A stretch of DNA of 64,000 nucleotides from assembly GCA_025057375.1 (NCBI GenBank), contig JANWWO010000007.1, positions 1-64,000 on the forward strand. The letters run 5' to 3'. Below are positions 19,410 through 63,123 of this stretch, in pieces. Source of the DNA: Candidatus Absconditabacterales bacterium. Its GTDB lineage: Bacteria > Patescibacteriota > Gracilibacteria > Absconditabacterales > Absconditicoccaceae. Each line of letters begins with the position of its first letter. Position 1 is the stretch's first letter. Under the pieces are notes generated by a model, which was not told the origin of the DNA, ran no database searches, and saw only the letters and a program-made list of their open reading frames with translations. Position numbers and translations under genes: made by a program.

Positions 19410-19646
19410 TTATTTTTCAAAAAAAGTCAAAAAATCTCTTGCAATTTGATTGTAGATTAGTATCAATACTTCGGTGTCTTTATTTTCTACCTTTTTTGTG
19501 ATGCGTTCAGCGATATGTTTTATTCTTACCATTTTCGTGCTCATGATTGCTTGAGATCGCGGAGAGATGTTGGGAAAAGAAAAAACATACTGACGAGCTC
19601 TAAATTGGTAGTATGATAGATACACATCTCAATCCTCTCCGTACAT
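19410..19646 (-). CDS. Small unknown protein, 78 residues
   Basis: A minus-strand frame starting at ATG 19644-19646 (MYGEDGDVYLSYYQFRARQY) and ending at TAA 19410-19412, convergent with the antiporter gene and 8 bases from its stop. The second half is charged and helical (MVRIKHIAERITKKVENKD). No family recognised. A start at an internal ATG would leave only 44 residues. The protein-like composition and clean boundaries support it. Confidence 0.5.
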
Positions 19647-19686
19647 CACAGTCGGTGGGGATTTTTTTATTTATTTGGAGAGAGTG

Positions 19687-22600
19687 ATGACTGAAGTAAT
19701 AAAACAACCAAACAGATGAATGACAAAAGGTGCGTTATATGAGATCGATCTCTGATGAAAACACACAAGTTCGTTAGCATGAATGATGAAAGGTGCGTTA
19801 TATGCGGTGATGAGGGAGTGAGTGGCTTTACAAATTCTCTGACCAGAATATTGAGTAGTTAGGGATGTTCCAAATATTGTATTATCTAGAAACATAAAGG
19901 GTATAATACAAGATCTTTCAGCTGCGCTGTCCATTGATAGATTTATTATTCAACAAGTATTAGCTTTATGTATTGTGCATGGTTTCATTGAACATTTTGA
20001 TGTTTGAGTTCAATGATCATTGTGACCTAATGATATATGGTACAGTCAACAAGCAACAGCATGTCGACGCACAAACAATCCATGCTCTTTGGACGAAGCA
20101 GTAAATATTCTCATATCGTTTTTTGAAAAGGTATCTCATCTTGAAGCAATCCAACAGTTTTCTTCTCAAAATACAATTCCCTGAGTTGAATTTTTTTTGA
20201 TAAATGGACCACGAAATATAGAAAGACCTTACGATTCTGAGAATATTGGGTCAATGTCTCTACAGGAATATTGCGACCATTTATATGAGAATGCTTTGTA
20301 TTGTCAACAAGTACTATGACCTGCTGTCTATCTACGTAATATGATGTTGTCAGAAAAAATTTGAACTCATCCTTGAATAGAATTACGTTGATGAATACAT
20401 CCGCCGTTGTCTCTTACTCACCCATCCCAAGAAGCATCTATAGCTATCCCATTAGGGAAAGAAGAAATATCATTCCCACCTTTTGCTACACACTATAATG
20501 ACTTTATGTCTTGGTTTTGATTTGAGCCACAAGATACTCGTCCATGAAGGCAGATATCAAAATACTTTCATGAAATATATACAGAGATCAAGGAAATCAT
20601 GCATACTTTTTCTAAATGAGATAAGTGGATAACAGACTGACGATCAAGTATTATGCGTATGTTGGAAGAACAAGAAAGAAGAAATAAAGCACATCTTACT
20701 GCAAAACAAAAGGTAAATGGAGAAATCAAGTTACTATCTTCTATAAATAGCACTCTAAACCTAATTATAACAATAATTAACCGTATGGCAACAGATAAAA
20801 AAAGAGGAGCTATACAAGAAAAAATCAAAAAAATATCGCTCCCTCTACAAAGAGATAATGGTGGAAATACATTTTTTAATCTTTTTGTTGAATTTGTTCA
20901 ATGTAAAGAACGCGAAAGAATACAACAAGAGCAAGAACAAACCAAGAATCCAGATTTATTTGCCTTAAAACACATAATCACCACACAACTAAATGATAAA
21001 GCATTATCAAGTTCAATTATCATCATAAATGATGATATATCGATAAATGATGTGCCTACAATAGACAATAAAACACTGTGAGAATGTATATGAAAAATTA
21101 AACATACTGGCGAAATGTTAAGTTTAGATGTAATACAAGAAGTATATCAAGCCATTATAAACAAGAATATAAAAACTATTGAGTGAGAAAATAATAAGAA
21201 CAGATATAAACAATCAATGGACTTATTTTTCGAAACATATATCTGTCCACTTTTTTGAGAATGAGAACTCAAATCAAAACAAGATATCATATCTTTACTG
21301 TGATATTTACAAAAGTTTGTAGAACAGGTGCAAAAAAAAATTTTACATGATCAACAAAAAAAGATTGATACGATACTTGATCCATATACATATGACTCAC
21401 ATTCAAAAAACAACAACAACATAGGCATAACTGGAATGGATGGAGATATATATGAAGAAGTAAAAAACATATATGAATTAATCCAAGATCGGATAAATGT
21501 CTGAAATTTTGATCCACGTTCGTCTCAAGGGATAATACAAAAAATACAAGAAATAATCATAAAGTGTGACGAGGAAAGAAGACACAAAGAAAGACAAAAC
21601 ACATTACTCAGCGATAGTATAGAAATTTCGACATTTTTGGTCTCTTTCCTCAAAAACATTAAAATAGATTACGAAACTCTCATAAGAAGAGAAATTGATA
21701 AAAGGCTCTATCAAGCATATAAAAACAAACAAGACTATGATCCATCTCTAGAAGAGTGGATGATTATCCATTCATCAGAAGATCTTCGTATGGCAGAGCA
21801 AAATAAAAGAGTTTTAGAAGAAGAAATTGTTAAGCTAACGGAAGAACTTGAATGGTATCAACAACAACAAACAAAATTTCGTCCTCAAAACATTGAAGAA
21901 AATACGATAGTTACAGGATTTCTTTCTGATAGAATAAAATCACTAAGAGATACTATTGAAGCAAAAAAGAAGAAACTAGCAAAATTGAGACAATGAGGTG
22001 AGAAGTGAAATCAATCAATCGTAGAAAGAGTAAGACAGAATATACAAACCAAAATAGCGTATGTTCAGGAATTGATAAGACAAAAACAACAAGAGATACA
22101 TAACATTCGTGAGAAAATTGCTACCTTCAATACATCTCTTCAAGAGCTTGCTACATTAACAACAATCCCAAAAGACAGCTCACAAATACAAGAAAAAATT
22201 TTGGGAAATACTATAAAAGCCTTTCAAACAAACACAGATGTTTTTATTCAAACAAGAAAAAAAGAGATACAAAAAGAGATACAGAATTTGTTAGATAAAA
22301 AGAGAAAATTAATACCAAGTATATCAGTACAAGAGGAAAGTAAGAAAATTGAAACTACTATTGCTGATTTGGAACAGTTACTACAATCCTCCGATAAAGA
22401 GGAAATATTTACATGGTATCGAAATAAAACGATTTGAGAATTACAAGAAAAAATTATTAACGCAAAAACTCAACAAGAAAACAAGCTAGATGTGTGGGAA
22501 AATGATCTAATGTCATTACAAGAATCTCTTACAATGTATCAGTCCACACAAGTACCTCACGATCCTTCTTGAGATGCAATATCTGTCGAGAATATTATTG

Positions 22601-23580
22601 GATATGTCCAAGAAGTATACAACAAAATATATAATCAGATACTATGTTTTATCAATGATCTTCGTGCGGTGAGAGATTGATGAAAACGTCTCGTTTTTCG
22701 TAAATGAATTTCATGACTTGTAATATGTGATCTACATGAATCTTATGAAAGAGACTTTTTCCCTCGTGAGCAATTTTTTGCTTATCAAAACGCAAGAAAA
22801 AAAGAAGAAATAATTCACAAAAATTACCCATGAACAAATAAACAAAAAGAATGAAAAGAATGAGAGCAATCGTATCAAATACTTTTTGATATGAGATCTT
22901 ATACATGCATGATGCTAAGTATATTCTTATCGTTCCGTACACCTACTTGAAGAACATGAGAGTTTTGTGAAATTGGAATAATACAAAAACTACATAACGG
23001 TACATTTCTTCCTCATGTTAGTGTTATCCAAACAACACCTGTAGGTATTTGAGTCTCCAAGGAATGAACGCTTGTGGCTTCTAAGGTGGCATGATGATGA
23101 ACGAGCGAGGATTTTTTCTACCAAGACAATAAGAATATATTTTACAAAACGGTAAAACAAGCAATTTTTTGACAAGCAGATTACGAAGTCATTGTTCAAG
23201 CTTTAATAGACAATTATAACCAACTATCTAAATCATCAATTTCTGTGGGGGATATTGAAGAATCTGAACTTATCAACGCAATCATGATTCTTGCGTATGC
23301 TCAATTCCATCAATGAGCTGTGATTATTGATGATCCTGATAACCACTTACGATTTAGGTTCCATACAAAATGAGCGGAGGAATCCGAAGATGCTCGACAA
23401 AAAAGGATGGCCAGAAAGAAGCAAAGAAGAACAACAATGCGATCAATACTGGGGTTGCAAGAAATTGGAGAAACAGGAAAGTTTCTTGTCCCAGCATGAT
23501 ATCAGTCACCAACGATTATCGCTCCTATTGTCCAAAAGTTTATTGATGCATATAACGAACGAGCTAAAAACAATAAATAA
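19687..23580 (+). CDS. Very large helical protein of unknown function
   Basis: An open frame of 1297 residues with TGA read as Gly. The N-terminus contains a short internal duplication: MTKGALYEID and MMKGALYAVM lie 20 residues apart and are encoded by near-identical DNA (19728-19744 and 19788-19804). Residues of about 330-1000 are rich in Glu, Lys and Gln with heptad patterns (coiled coil). The last 300 residues look globular (VVICDLHESYERDFFPREQ-like and VIQTTPVGIGVSKEG). There is no signal peptide or membrane segment. I recognise no domain. The next gene (23644-24810) follows after 63 bases and may share its transcript. Confidence 0.75.
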
Positions 23581-29998: not shown

Positions 29999-31210
29999 AT
30001 GTCTTCTCTTTTCTTCCTTATTGACGATCTTTTTCAGCTCCAAATCACGCGTGATCATCCGCTCGCTCTTTATCCCACCTGATCATCATTACCCTCATGA
30101 TGACCAGAATATCATGCAGATTCTCTCAATCATCAAGGAGATATTCAAAACATTCCTTATAGTCAGTATTATCATACACAATTGGCTCAGATTACTAAAG
30201 CACTCCATGATTTTGCAATCACAACTGCGATCGACCGACCGTCCGAAGACAGACTCGTACTGGATTCTTTCATCGCCAAACGAGAGGAGGTATGCCACAC
30301 TAATGATTGGCTATCGTTGGAAGAGTTTTGGGTCCAGCAGTCGCACAGACAAGGGAAATATCTTTTGAGTCTGTGACCAATCGAAAATTATTCAGATCCG
30401 CTCTGATGAACCAAAAGACTTTTTACTGCTGTCCTCCTTCGTCGTGATGATCGTTTGGCTACAGACATCAAAAAAATATGTACGTTTGTCTCTCGTTTTG
30501 CGTCTCGTGCATTTCCTGATTGTCCTCAAACGCCGGTATCAGTTTGGATGGGAAATATTGTTGACTGGGCGGGTGAGATTAAGAGTGTCCGTGCATCGTG
30601 ACGGTCCAGACCTGAGCAGACGGACATCATCAATCGTGTCTGATCTATCAAGCAAATTTTTCTTGACCAAACCGTCGCCAAAGCACGGGCAGAATATCTT
30701 CCCCTCCACTCACTTCTCGCCCAAGAACTATGATGTTTACTGGACGAGGGGTCAGTCAAAGATTTTTTTCAGAATTATTTTTGGATCGGTTTGTTGTGTC
30801 ATGAGCTTGGGCATACGATAGGAAAATATCCTGGCTATCCTGAGAGAATGAGCGAACGATACCAAACAATCGAAGAAAATCGTGCAGAAATTATCGCAAT
30901 CAAACTGTGGTATGAATTGTATGATGAGAATATTGGAGAAAAACATCTGACCTGACTGTTTTTGTGGACTTGATTGCTTGCGTCGTGTTCGATGTGGCGT
31001 GGGTATCATCACCATGGGGAAAGAAAAGCTTATCGCTACCATTTCCCGATTTTTGCTCGTTTGCGAGAAGCATACCAAATCTGAGATGATCGTGTGTGTA
31101 TGGAACACCTGTATGCGGAATTGATGAGCATTGTTCACCGTGGCACCAAAGAGCAGTGTGAGCAATTTCATGCATCATTGGAATACAAAAAATTAAAAAA
31201 TTTCTTGTAA
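29999..31210 (+). CDS. Dipeptidyl peptidase III-like zinc peptidase (M49)
   Basis: A 403-residue protein resembling the catalytic half of DPP III. It has GPIENYSDPLGGTKRLF (family GPYExYED segment), a zinc motif in LLCHELGHTIGKYPG and the third ligand in TIEENRAEIIAIKLW (family EECRAE). DPP III enzymes have the six-residue HELLGH; here it is five residues, HELGH, i.e. a classical HExxH. There is no signal peptide. It starts 29 bases after the ATP-grasp-like gene and is followed by an attenuator-like leader. Role: removal of dipeptides from peptide N-termini, inferred. Confidence 0.75.
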
Positions 31211-31268
31211 TAGGAAGAAAAAATCTTATCTTGTCAATACATAAACTTTACTCAACCAATTTTTTCTT

Positions 31269-31337
31269 ATGATCCGTTTTCCTGTTGTATATTATTTTGG
31301 ATTTTTCTTCTCCCTGTGAGAGGTGGTTTTTTGATAA
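31269..31337 (+). CDS. Phe/Tyr-rich leader peptide (22 residues)
   Basis: A short frame ATG 31269 to TAA 31335-31337. Its core is FPVVYYFGFFF: six of the 22 residues are Phe and two Tyr. Two internal TGA codons are read as Gly under this code. The end of the frame overlaps the 5' arm of an antiterminator, and a terminator follows. This is the arrangement of classical amino-acid attenuation leaders such as pheA. No strong ribosome site is visible, so translation is inferred. Confidence 0.6.
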
Positions 31338-31402
31338 TGAAAAAAACAGATACTCATACCAGCCTCTCATCCATATATGGACTAGGAGGTTTTTTATTTT
31401 TT
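31318..31402 (+). promoter_or_regulatory. Transcription attenuator upstream of the first GCS2-like gene
   Basis: Segment 2, GAGAGGTGGT (31318-31327), pairs with segment 3, ACCAGCCTCTC (31358-31368), leaving one bulged G: an antiterminator. Alternatively CCTC of segment 3 (31363-31366) pairs with GAGG (31386-31389) around an inner hairpin TCCA-TATA-TGGA, followed by TTTTTTATTTTTT: a terminator. The two structures exclude each other. A ribosome stalled at the Phe codons 31302-31310 would leave segment 2 free; one reaching the leader stop would cover it. Confidence 0.65.
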
Positions 31403-31416
31403 CTTTCTTTTTTTTC

Positions 31417-32484
31417 ATGAATATTCGAAGATTAAAACCAAACAATATAATACATAACCCTCGTAAACGTGTGTGATTAGAGGTAGAAAAATGTATTATT
31501 GATCGCAAAGGAAACCCTGTTTTTTCCATTGATGGGAAGTTGCCGTACAAACACCTTTCAGACGTTTTAGCAGATAAAATGAAACAATATTGATTCACGA
31601 TTACGTGCGAAGTATTTCGTCATCAAATTGAACTTGTTCTTTCCACACCAATGATGGAAGAAAAAGCTATTGATGCGATGCAGGAATGATTCCGTTGTGT
31701 GCAAGATTATTTGGCGACACAGTGACTTGCATTTGCTGACCAATCTCATCCTTTGCCATATCCATGATGATGAGCGGATGATGTGCTGACGCCATTTGAT
31801 TTTTATACAGAGAGTATGACGAAGGTAAATGAAAAAGGACGAAAAATGATGAAAAATAATCCTTTGATGGACTATGTCACCCCCCAAGCGTGATATCAAG
31901 TTGCTATTCAAAAAATATGACAACAAGCACAAGATTTTTCTTTTGCACGAAACGCATCTACCTGTTCTCTCCATCAGCATACATCACTTTGAGACTCACA
32001 TCTTACCCTCCAGCTCGTATGGGCATTGAAACTCCTTGAATCTCATAGTATCGATACATGATGATCTGATTGGTACCAAAAGTTCGGTATGTGATCAGCT
32101 CGCTATGAAGCATGGAAAAAGATAGTAAATATTAGAAATCAAATCAATGAGACCTTGTTCCCTTTTGGAAAATCTCTTTTTGGTGAATGATGAGTAGAGA
32201 AAAATCCACATAACCGAGAACAGCATATTTCTCAACGGTATTTTGGTGGGAAATCTATTCCATGGGGAAATCCTTATGTTCCTAGAGATCATCAGTTTGC
32301 TGTCCTCAAAGCACCATGATGAACTTTTACTGCTGAACTCAGAGGACATGATGCTCCCACAAATCCAGATGATATTAAAACAATGGTTCAGCGCAATAAA
32401 GCATTACAACAAGAAGCATGTGCATTGGTACAAGAACGTCTTTCTCAATATCAATCCGCCCCCAAAGTTTATATAGTATCGTAG
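31417..32484 (+). CDS. Carboxylate-amine ligase-like protein (GCS2-type)
   Basis: A 355-residue protein with features of the glutamate-cysteine ligase 2 / YbdK fold: VGLEVEKCIIDRKGNPVF at the N-terminus (ExE metal motif), CEVFRHQIELVLSTPM, then SHPLPYPGGG, and a C-terminal FTAELRGHDAPTNP. Such enzymes form a gamma-glutamyl or other amide bond with ATP. It is preceded by the attenuator, so its expression may depend on Phe (or Tyr) supply. TGA codons encode many of its glycines, including the GG pairs. The exact substrate cannot be told. Confidence 0.6.
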
Positions 32485-32554
32485 GCGTTACGGTACTTTT
32501 TTGTTTTATAAAAAAACTCTCATTTTTTCTTGTAATTTTGTTTCAAAGTATTAC

Positions 32555-32566
32555 TGTACTAATACA
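32555..32566. promoter_or_regulatory. Candidate operator of the TrpR-family regulator, copy 1
   Basis: TGTACTAATACA has TGTA/TACA arms and lies 28 bases before the regulator's ATG. A near copy occurs at 32913-32924. The E. coli trp operator also contains GTACTAG/CTAGTAC-type arms. Confidence 0.35.
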
Positions 32567-32593
32567 TCAATACAATTTATTTTCGTTGTTCTT

Positions 32594-32857
32594 ATGTATT
32601 ATCACGATTCTCTTCCTCACGTCGCTGACTTTTTGAGAAAAATATCGACTGACGATATGGAGGATGTGCTCCAGGATTTTTTGACTCCTCAAGAAATTGT
32701 CGTTCTGGCTGAGAGGATAGAATTGTTCAAACAGCTCAAAGCAGGGAAGACCCAAAGAGAAATTGCAAATGACATGGGAATTTCGGTAACCACGGTGAGT
32801 AGAGGGAATAGAGTCTTGCAGTATGGTACGGGTAAGATTGGGAAATATGTGACGTAG
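32594..32857 (+). CDS. TrpR/YerC-family transcriptional regulator
   Basis: An 87-residue protein of the Trp-repressor superfamily. It has the family's N-terminal helices (MEDVLQDFLTPQEIVVLAER) and helix-turn-helix GKTQREIANDMGISVTTVSR followed by GNRVLQYGTGK. Length equals YerC-type members. The ATG at 32594 is preferred; earlier in-frame starts add a hydrophobic stretch foreign to the family. It lies between the two GCS2-like genes and two TGTACTAATA sites flank it, suggesting autoregulation and control of this locus. The corepressor is unknown. Confidence 0.88.
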   Translation: MYYHDSLPHVADFLRKISTDDMEDVLQDFLTPQEIVVLAERIELFKQLKAGKTQREIANDMGISVTTVSRGNRVLQYGTGKIGKYVT

Positions 32858-32912: not shown

Positions 32913-32924
32913 TGTACTAATATG
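32913..32924. promoter_or_regulatory. Candidate operator of the TrpR-family regulator, copy 2
   Basis: TGTACTAATATG shares its first eleven bases, TGTACTAATAT versus TGTACTAATAC, with the site at 32555 except the last, and lies upstream of the second GCS2-like gene. Confidence 0.3.
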
Positions 32925-33016: not shown

Positions 33017-33799
33017 ATGAAATGATATACATTTTGAATTGAAAACGAAGTGATTATCCTTGATTTTCAATGACGCTGTGTCCCAAAAAACGCGGAGGTA
33101 ATACAAAGATTTATCCAAAAATATCCTCAATACGCAAACAACATCAAACCAGAACTTGATGCTTGCCAAGTAGAGCTCATTACTGATGTTCATGAATCCC
33201 TTAAGGCTGCAACGACACAAATTATCACACTGACAAATCTTGTTGCAAGAATTGTATCTGATTTGTGATATATATTATCTAAAAATCCAGCACCAGACTA
33301 TCCAGCATCAGACCAAAAAACATCAGTTGTCTCTGATCCTTGTATTCAAGCTAAATATCACAAGATTGACGTATTATTGAGAGAAAAAAATGTCAGATAC
33401 GCAACCAATATTGCTGGTATTCATATCAATATCGGTCATCTAGATGCACAAAAAATTCTTACTCTTCATCATGAGATGTCAAAACGTGTAAAAAATCTTT
33501 TGGATCAAAATGATCCTGACAATCTCGCATTTCATCCCCAAAGATTTAACCGTTACAAAATAGTCGTGGATGCATTCGAAACAGCAATGATTTTTGAACC
33601 AGATGAGTGAAACTATCTTGATGAGCTATGACATCCCAAAGATCAATGACATAGTTTAGTCAGGCTAAAAAAATATTGAAATAGATTGGTTACAGAGTTG
33701 AGAACACCACGTGGATGATATGATCTACCGAGTGTCATACAAAGTATTCAAACAGTGCTAACAAGTATTATTATTCCCTCACTCCAATCTGTCCGCTAA
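33017..33799 (+). CDS. GCS2-type carboxylate-amine ligase-like protein, short
   Basis: A 260-residue protein clearly related to GCS2 enzymes: YTFGIENEVIILDFQG with the ExE motif at residues 7-13, LDACQVELITDVHESL, AGIHINIGHLDAQKIL (the family HVH segment) and VTELRTPRGGYD near the end. It is shorter than typical members (about 370), lacking parts of the central domain. Start ATG 33017; a TGA-coded Gly follows two codons later. It is the second such protein in the locus and differs strongly from the one at 31417-32484, so they may form a pair. Confidence 0.7.
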
Positions 33800-39162: not shown

Positions 39163-41007
39163 TTATGGTGTTGAGTCAAGTGCAGGAAGTGGATCGATTA
39201 TGTCATGGAGATGATCAAAGATTGGTTGCGCGAGTTCTCATCAGCTATGTACAACGTCAAAAGCAATTGTTCCGATACTGTACCCCAAATAGCTATATGT
39301 TGCTGTTTTTCCAATCATTTTTGCTGCTATGATGCCTGTATCTACAATAGATAAGATTTTTGCTGCTGTGTGAATTGCTTTTGCTCCTTTTCAGATGGCT
39401 GCTCATCATTTGATGAGTGTTCCTACTCAGGGGATCAATCCAAGGATACCAAATCATGCTCTTGTTCGTCTCTCCGCTCATGAAAGATCGTTGCCTGTTA
39501 TGTCTTTTCAGGCAATAGCAGCTCCTAGATCATAGATGCCTCATACGATGGGGATCATTCCTAGTCATATATCTGCTCCAACCAGTGCCTTGTCTTTTCG
39601 TGTATCAGCGTTGAGTAAGGCTATTCCTATCCCTATCGTTGCAAATCATGCTGCTCCTCATGTTAGTATTTTTTCTCCTTTTTCTCCTATTTTTTTTCGT
39701 TTGGATACGAGTTTCTTTGTTCATCCATTGGCAGTCAAGAGGTCATCGAGTGCACCATATTTCTGTTTGAGTTCATTGAGTGTCTGTTCATCACAGTATC
39801 TGGTTCCTAGGAGGAGTTTGTCAGTATATGGCTTGAGTTTGGTGTTTGTGTCGTGGGTGAGTTTGGTGACTTTTATTTGTGCTTCTTGGGTGAGCGATGC
39901 TTGTTGAGAAGGATTTTTCGCAATTGCGTGTTTGAGTTCTTGTTCTATTTTTATGACAGATTGGTGATGATGGTTGCGAATCGTCTCGGTTGTATTGATT
40001 GTTTTTTCTATGATACTTTTTCCGATTTTATTGCTATATTCTGTGAGTTTGTCTGGTTTTCATGATTCTAGATATTTGCCCATGGTAGCGATAATGGTGA
40101 GTCATGCTGCTCAGCCAAATACTCCTGTACTTTTGGGGTTGTTGATAGATGCTCTCAGATCAGTAAGGAGAGGGTTGTTGTGTATGCCCTGTGTATGTGC
40201 GAGTCATTCTCGATGGGTGAGTTTGTTTTTCCAGAGGGGAAGGAGGATGGATGCCAAAAATTCATTAATTTTTTTTCATCAGACAGCAAGTCGTTTCCCA
40301 CTGAGAAGATCCTTTGTCGTCCATGGTCATGGTCCTGTGGGAATATATCAGAGTTGAAGCGCACGGGTGAGGATAAACGTTTCTGTTTTCATCGATTCAT
40401 CGAGTGTTGTGATTCGTTCCTGGAGTTGTGAAGGCATGGTCACCTCTTGTGTTATTGTTTCTGGATGTGTCGTGTGTTCTGTTTTATTGTCGTGAGTGTT
40501 GGTATTTTGTGCATGTTGAGGTGGTGTATCCTCGTGTTTTTTTTCTTGTTGTGTATGATCTGCATGTTCTGGCTGTTGCTGTCTAGGAGATAGCTGTAGC
40601 GTATTGTTCTTGTTTGGTGTGTTGTCATGGACTGATGATCATAGGTCTGACAGTGATTGTTCTGTTTTTTTGATAATAGCTGTTGTTTCTTCTCGTTTTG
40701 TGGTTATTATTTCACGCCATCCTAACAAAAAATCAAGAACTTTGCCTTTGAGCCATCAGACTGCTTTGTTCCATAGTGTTTCGATCAATGATCATTCTTG
40801 ACCATGCGTGGAGGTAATAAGATCGTCAATAAGGTCAATAACGTTTTTTTTTTGGTCTCGTGCTTGGGTAGCAAGATCGATGAGTGATTTTTTTTCGAGA
40901 ATATGATGAAAAATCATCCCCTTTAACTCTCAAAGCTCTGCTTCAACCTCATGAGCAAAACGGGAGAGGATTTCTTTTTTCCCAGGTATTGTAGGAGATT
41001 CTTTCAT
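39163..41007 (-). CDS. Large protein with a pre-toxin-like segment, 614 residues
   Basis: Starts at ATG 41005-41007 behind a near-consensus promoter. The N-terminal 250 residues are helical, then Gln/His/Thr-rich and acidic. Residues of about 465-560 read ADIGLGMIPIVGGIYDLGAA, IAGKDITGNDLSGAERR and LGLIPGVGTLIKGGAAIGKG. This order (IPIVG, GKD-TG--LS--ER, LG-IPGVG, Gly/Lys/Ala helices) is like the pre-toxin TG region that precedes toxin domains in polymorphic and LXG toxins. Only about 50 residues follow, ending LPALDSTP, too short for a known toxin. There is no signal peptide. Function inferred only from this segment. Confidence 0.65.
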
Positions 41008-41046
41008 GGGGGCAAGAATAATAAATATGTGCTTTGTATTATACAA

Positions 41047-41074
41047 ATTATACAAAAAAAATATTTTTTGTCAA
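41047..41074 (-). promoter_or_regulatory. Near-consensus promoter for the gene at 39163-41007
   Basis: Minus strand TTGACA at 41069-41074 and TATAAT at 41047-41052 with a 16-base spacer, 40 bases before the ATG. A second TATAAT follows directly. Confidence 0.75.
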
Positions 41075-62732: not shown

Positions 62733-63123
62733 GGGGATGTTTTGGTTTCGATGGAAGAATTCGTAGTACATCACGAGCCACTTGTCGATGGGCGTACCGA
62801 CACAAAAATAATCGTCCAACTCTATCGTGCAAACGACAAATCTTTGACTGCAAGAGCAATGTATGCTTTTAATCCAGCATATGCTGCTTAGTCCCTTTCT
62901 CTTTAGAGAATTGTATACCCTGTTTCTCGCGGATTGCTACCGTAACGCGGAGGGTGAAACGAAGGTAGTGACCTAGAATTGTGAACCCTTTGGGGCAAAG
63001 TGTGTGTTTGTGTCATTATCATCACACTGCCAGCACCAAAGTATCGTGGATTAAATAATGACTGTGGTGGGAGAACGTGATGTATTGCTCTTTCAGACAC
63101 GGGTTCAAATCCCGTCATCTCCA
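62733..63123 (+). ncRNA. ssrA: Transfer-messenger RNA (tmRNA)
   Basis: Rescues stalled ribosomes and tags their products for proteolysis. The 5' end GGGGATG (62733-62739) with GGTTTCGAT behind it is the tmRNA consensus. It pairs with CATCTCC (63116-63122) to form the acceptor stem. The T arm is ACGGG-TTCAAAT-CCCGT (63099-63115). The discriminator A (63123) is followed by T7, so CCA must be added after transcription. The tag frame starts at 62829 and encodes ANDKSLTARA then MYAFNPAYAA, ending at TAG 62889-62891: the usual AND start and an Ala-Ala end for proteases. About 391 bases. Confidence 0.95.

Follow-up and report, generated by a model that had tools for sequence, protein, structure and literature searches.

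The stretch at 31239-31416 of the window (the whole 64,000-nucleotide piece of DNA that was analysed) reads, with a probability of about one half, as the leader of the transcript of gene 31417, acting as an attenuator of transcription that is coupled to translation, a judgement drawn from the sequence. Attenuation, at about even odds, is the best explanation, and translation coupling the best mechanism. E. coli amino-acid attenuators are textbook leader-peptide RNA switches, and because the leader of 31417 is laid out like them, translation of a leader peptide probably decides whether gene 31417 is transcribed. The features involved are as follows.

31203-31234, plus strand: predicted promoter, TCTTGTAAT (31203-31211), 14 nt and TTATCTTGT (31226-31234), with a start at about 31239-31241
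31269-31337, plus strand: predicted leader ORF, 22 codons from the ATG at 31269 to a TAA ending at 31337, MIRFPVVYYFGFFFSLGEVVFG and stop
31307-31312, plus strand: strand 1, within the codons Phe13-Ser15, pairing with 31318-31323 by folding
31316-31327, plus strand: strand 2, the 5' side of the antiterminator by folding, within the leader ORF
31358-31370, plus strand: strand 3, common to antiterminator and terminator by folding
31361-31391, plus strand: terminator-like hairpin of strands 3 and 4, -11.4 kcal/mol, z -2.75
31390-31415, plus strand: T tract, the putative U tail of the terminator and, for the next gene, the U-rich translation-start tract
31417-32484, plus strand: putative controlled gene, 355 aa, weakly GCS2 carboxylate-amine ligase-like, with one homologue, in the genome G006

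The genome background amounts to 1.13 Mb in 21 contigs, with 846 genes called under code 25. A tRNA-Gly(UCA) is present, so UGA is read as glycine, and the description of a UGA=Gly organism with two UGA codons inside the leader, given in a sequence-only reading of this DNA, is borne out, the two codons being numbers 17 and 22 of the leader ORF. As UGA makes up 37% of the glycine codons in the genome, their occurrence there is ordinary.

Predicted promoter and leader ORF

A promoter motif, TCTTGCAAT-N14-CTATACTtA, was learned from 503 upstream regions of the genome; the -35 element of this consensus is altered. The predicted promoter at 31203-31234, which is probably active, scores 6.16, a value equalled in 18 of 1000 shuffles of 31150-31268 and in 41 of 1000 shuffles of 31180-31416, and overlaps the stop of the preceding gene, 29999-31210. 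Its -10 block lies 183 nt from the start of gene 31417 and 35 nt 5' of the ATG of the leader ORF, 30-39 nt being the commonest promoter-to-start bin in the genome. The ORF itself, recovered by translation at the place claimed for it earlier, is presumably translated. As a start its ATG is of intermediate quality, at the 20th percentile among real starts and the 75th among intergenic ATGs, which counts against an attenuator. As befits an attenuator, the prediction sets a promoter 5' of the leader ORF and none between the terminator and the gene, where the space from hairpin 31361-31391 to the ATG of 31417 is too small to hold one.

This arrangement bears on the proposal that the hairpin is a mere terminator of gene 29999-31210, which is very improbable. 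That gene is on the same strand, with hairpin and T tract 3' of it, and intrinsic terminators of the canonical hairpin and T-tract type are in use 3' of stop codons in the genome. However, many of those lie within ~30 nt of the stop, whereas the present hairpin is 151 nt past it, with a promoter predicted in between. In G006, moreover, the upstream neighbour of the homologous gene is divergent, so that the corresponding hairpin cannot terminate another gene's transcript.

Competing stems

Folding of the leader region yielded two alternative structures that share strand 3. The antiterminator, GAGAGGUGGU (31318-31327) with ACCA-G-CCUCUC (31358-31368), contains one bulged G and was refolded at -13.6 kcal/mol (z -2.6), in agreement with the 10-bp, singly bulged pairing first described; its duplex with strand 3 reaches 12 pairs and -17.0, attained in 0-1 of 2000 shuffles, and the two competing stems are found jointly in 0 of 1200. 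A small hairpin of strand 1 with strand 2 (31307-31312 with 31318-31323) is additionally present. The stability of the whole 177-nt leader is ordinary (z 0.06), the unusual part being the specific competing stems alone. When the growing RNA was folded, the antiterminator appeared once strand 3 was out and the terminator once strand 4 was out. The structure seen in the sequence-only reading is real and unusual. Its mutually exclusive antiterminator and terminator of classical geometry are supported, as are a predicted promoter 5' of the leader ORF and the recurrence of the layout in G006.

The evidence for termination is partly confounded by the way in which this genome starts its genes. Shine-Dalgarno sites are absent before its start codons (3% vs 7% in a control stretch), and most starts have 5' of them, at about -25 to -5, a tract rich in U that peaks at -20, with T up to 66%; the starts of G006 and G005 show a similar U-rich, SD-poor tendency. 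Since the tract is general, any hairpin just 5' of a start resembles a terminator, and the T run 5' of gene 31417, which ranks with the strongest of these tracts in the genome, is not terminator evidence by itself because most genes carry it as a start tract. Of the competing stem said to run into a T run, therefore, the hairpin holds (z -2.75) and the T run loses its independent weight. The stem and the antiterminator with which it shares a strand remain mutually exclusive, and the hairpin probably terminates.

It is in this light that the absence of any attenuator, which is rather unlikely, has to be weighed: the T tract would be a normal start tract, the hairpin would arise by chance or act only on translation or RNA stability, and the upstream ORF (uORF) would be a chance product of T-rich DNA. 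Besides the start tract, this explanation is favoured by the generally weak excess of hairpins, those of <= -10 kcal/mol beside start tracts numbering 8 vs 3.2 in shuffles and hence being merely 2.5x commoner, and by the frequency of uORFs, 274 of 609 upstream regions holding one of 15-40 codons. It is opposed by the competing antiterminator and the joint stems, both beyond chance in the shuffles, and by the repetition of the layout in the sole homologue.

What distinguishes 31417 is its competing stem. In a scan of 504 upstream regions of the genome, a hairpin beside the start tract was present in 27, of which 3 also had a competitor at p <= 0.05 (1.4 expected). The competitors before genes 19687 and 31417, both in the window, reached p 0.003 and 0.007, and these are the two credible attenuator-like cases among the 504. 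The third match, C14:49511, was rejected, its hairpin being the promoter palindrome itself. The same scan of G005, a family control of 1.04 Mb with 468 upstream regions, returned 11 hairpins and no credible attenuator-like case, the single hairpin at p <= 0.05 having a weak competitor and no uORF. At G005:C1:138218+ there is a 1208-aa protein, the first residues of which appear Cas12a-like.

Model of the proposed switch

A ribosome footprint was masked codon by codon along the leader ORF. As long as the ribosome stands on codons 1-13, the antiterminator is in place before strand 4, and on codons 14-23 the terminator has a probability of 1.00; the flip at codons 13-14 falls inside the FFF run. 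The ORF is therefore placed so that, in this model, ribosome position selects the stem. It makes no difference whether the UGA at codon 17 is taken as Gly or as stop, as the ribosome sits on strand 2 either way and the predicted outcome is equal.

According to the proposed mechanism, RNA polymerase would start near 31240 and a ribosome would start on the 22-codon leader ORF. A ribosome held at or before about codon 13, in the stretch Tyr-Tyr-Phe-Gly-Phe-Phe, would leave strand 2 free to pair with strand 3, and this 2:3 pairing would prevent the hairpin, so that gene 31417 would be transcribed. A ribosome that advanced as far as codon 14 or the stop codon would cover strand 2, upon which strand 3 would pair with strand 4 and the resulting 3:4 hairpin would end transcription in the T tract. 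The position of the ribosome would then be the signal.

Recurrence of the layout

The homologue of gene 31417 in G006 is 26% identical over the full alignment, and no other relative was found in 353 genomes of the class, 287 genomes of the phylum, genome_contigs or viral_contigs. An M20 peptidase adjoins it; in the window, an M20 peptidase lies three genes on. Like that of 31417, the G006 leader has a predicted promoter, a uORF (28 codons) with strand 2 inside it, competing stems and a hairpin close to the gene start, at 24 nt. It differs in its peptide, MKLTVHLIYMIRNLYMERRGVLLTIKSD, which is without an aromatic run, and in its weaker stems, both of which jointly were attained in 13 of 1200 shuffles, a significance of 1%; its footprint model is less clean toward the end of the ORF. 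Conservation in relatives, which comes down to this one homologue, is thus divided: the pairing layout is kept, but the Phe codons are not.

A second attenuator-like leader occupies 19437-19686 of the window, before gene 19687-23580, an orphan of 1297 aa with no homologue in 49 genomes of the family. It shares with the 31417 leader a promoter (TCTTGCAAT/GTATCAATA), a uORF (36 codons, at 19501), competing stems (-21.1 and -13.5 kcal/mol, jointly 0 of 1200 shuffles), a hairpin near the start (23 nt before it) and the motif AGATACnCATnnCA, which lies directly 5' of strand 3 at 19618 and 31348 and has no further intergenic copy in the genome; its peptide, MRSAICFILTIFVLMIAGDRGEMLGKEKTYGRALNW, and its orphan target set it apart. 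An overall similarity of the two leaders was discarded, the best local alignment having been equalled in 31 of 500 shuffles.

Comparison with known leaders

E. coli leaders served as controls. Both of their stems were attained in 0 (thr), 0 (pheA), 1 (pheST), 3 (trp) and 0 (his) of 600 shuffles, and in the footprint model pheA, trp and pheST formed the antiterminator before strand 4 mainly with the ribosome around the control codons. With pheA and pheST (pheL and pheM) the 31417 leader has in common a short leader ORF, aromatic codons and alternative 2:3 and 3:4 stems, and all three have strand 2 beginning 49 nt past the leader ATG; from the terminator end to the gene start there are 27 nt in pheA and 26 nt at 31417. 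In contrast to pheA and pheST, the Phe run at 31417 hardly exceeds the T-rich background, the target is not a gene of Phe synthesis or charging, the leader is longer with its stop after strand 2, the 1:2 protector is weak, a Shine-Dalgarno site is lacking and UGA is a sense codon. Furthermore, unlike the pheA and trp leaders, untranslated 31417 RNA favours the antiterminator, and hence there is no strong protector hairpin.

Such a preference of the free RNA would also suit an attenuator read by a protein, a small molecule or a tRNA on the leader RNA, with the ORF incidental, a possibility that appears improbable. It is in keeping with the unlike leader peptides of the different cases and with AGATACnCATnnCA, which both leaders of the genome carry and which is intergenic nowhere else. 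However, this motif was chosen post hoc, is short and is absent from G006, and strand 2 lies within a uORF in all three leaders, as fits control by a ribosome. Comparison with Rfam likewise gave no riboswitch match in the leader even at E 10; a T-box riboswitch was rejected, no T-box family model matching up to that value. The Phe_leader family (RF01859) aligned over its full length and in register, at 16.6 bits against a gathering cut-off of 55 (E 1.6-1.9), and does not count as a match.

Leader peptide and putative controlled gene

Control by charged tRNA-Phe or tRNA-Tyr, as the sequence-only reading had it, is not supported. Over codons 2-16, shuffling of this T-rich stretch matched the Phe count in 17% of cases (P 0.17) and the Phe+Tyr count in 3.5% (P 0.035); the G006 leader has no Phe run; and a scan of upstream regions revealed no comparable leader before pheS or the two genes of the Trp/Tyr synthetase family in the genome. 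Among 448 uORFs, 3 are as aromatic as the leader ORF, which is itself counted. The target is not one that makes or charges Phe, being weakly GCS2-like. Aromatic residues can be taken as a weakly supported first guess for the amino acid sensed, if there is one; sensing of aromatic amino acids by the leader is possible, and a specificity for Phe is unproven.

The description of the downstream gene as GCS2-like stands in part. Its product matches TIGR02050 at E 0.0045, but has no Pfam match, and the label stays weak because comparing profiles against GCS2 sequences of other families in the class gave a probability of 0.9%. The AlphaFold model of the product is unusable (pLDDT 38.7).

No report of leader-peptide attenuation in Patescibacteria was found in a full-text search of the open-access literature. 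It is tentatively suggested that ribosome-coupled attenuation may operate in Patescibacteria that read UGA as Gly and lack Shine-Dalgarno sites, that one U tract may be both terminator tail and landing site of the next ribosome, and that at least two orphan genes of the genome analysed may be so controlled. If this is true, transcription is coupled to translation in these minimal and probably host-dependent bacteria, which sense translation supply in a genome that is recoded and lacks Shine-Dalgarno sites; the U tract with its double use would show how genomes with U-tract starts avoid, or exploit, accidental termination.

The TrpR-like locus and other observations

Downstream of gene 31417 lies a further gene.

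32528-32857, plus strand: TrpR-like gene (32594-32857) with its own predicted promoter (32528-32559) and an operator-like GTACTAATAC at 32556, outside the switch

The encoded protein has a match to Trp_repressor (E 2.3e-15) and further matches among solved TrpR structures. As the gene has its own predicted promoter and operator-like palindrome, the suggestion that a regulator locus is under leader control is doubtful; a link of the locus to aromatic amino acids is plausible, via TrpR and not via the leader. Operator-like palindromes (GTACTAATAC/T) at 32556-32565 and 32914-32923 flank the TrpR-like gene, the one at 32914, GTACTAATAT, standing 5' of the following gene (33017-33799, with a PF04107 match at E 2.8e-6), and the same palindrome motif occurs at the start of a TrpR-like gene in G034 (L007:1483). 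G025 (L009 1501-3251) has a TrpR-like gene and, after it, a possible GCS2-like gene, alignable with the window genes and without a Pfam match, and then an AstE/aspartoacylase-type hydrolase gene; the TrpR-like gene of G007 precedes a Trp/Tyr-type tRNA synthetase.

Elsewhere in the window, 39163-41055 is a gene with a Pre-toxin TG domain (PF14449) at its end, which adjoins one for a 1055-aa protein without a Pfam match. For the tmRNA at 62733-63123, ARAGORN predicts an unusually long tag, VQLYRANDKSLTARAMYAFNPAYAA.
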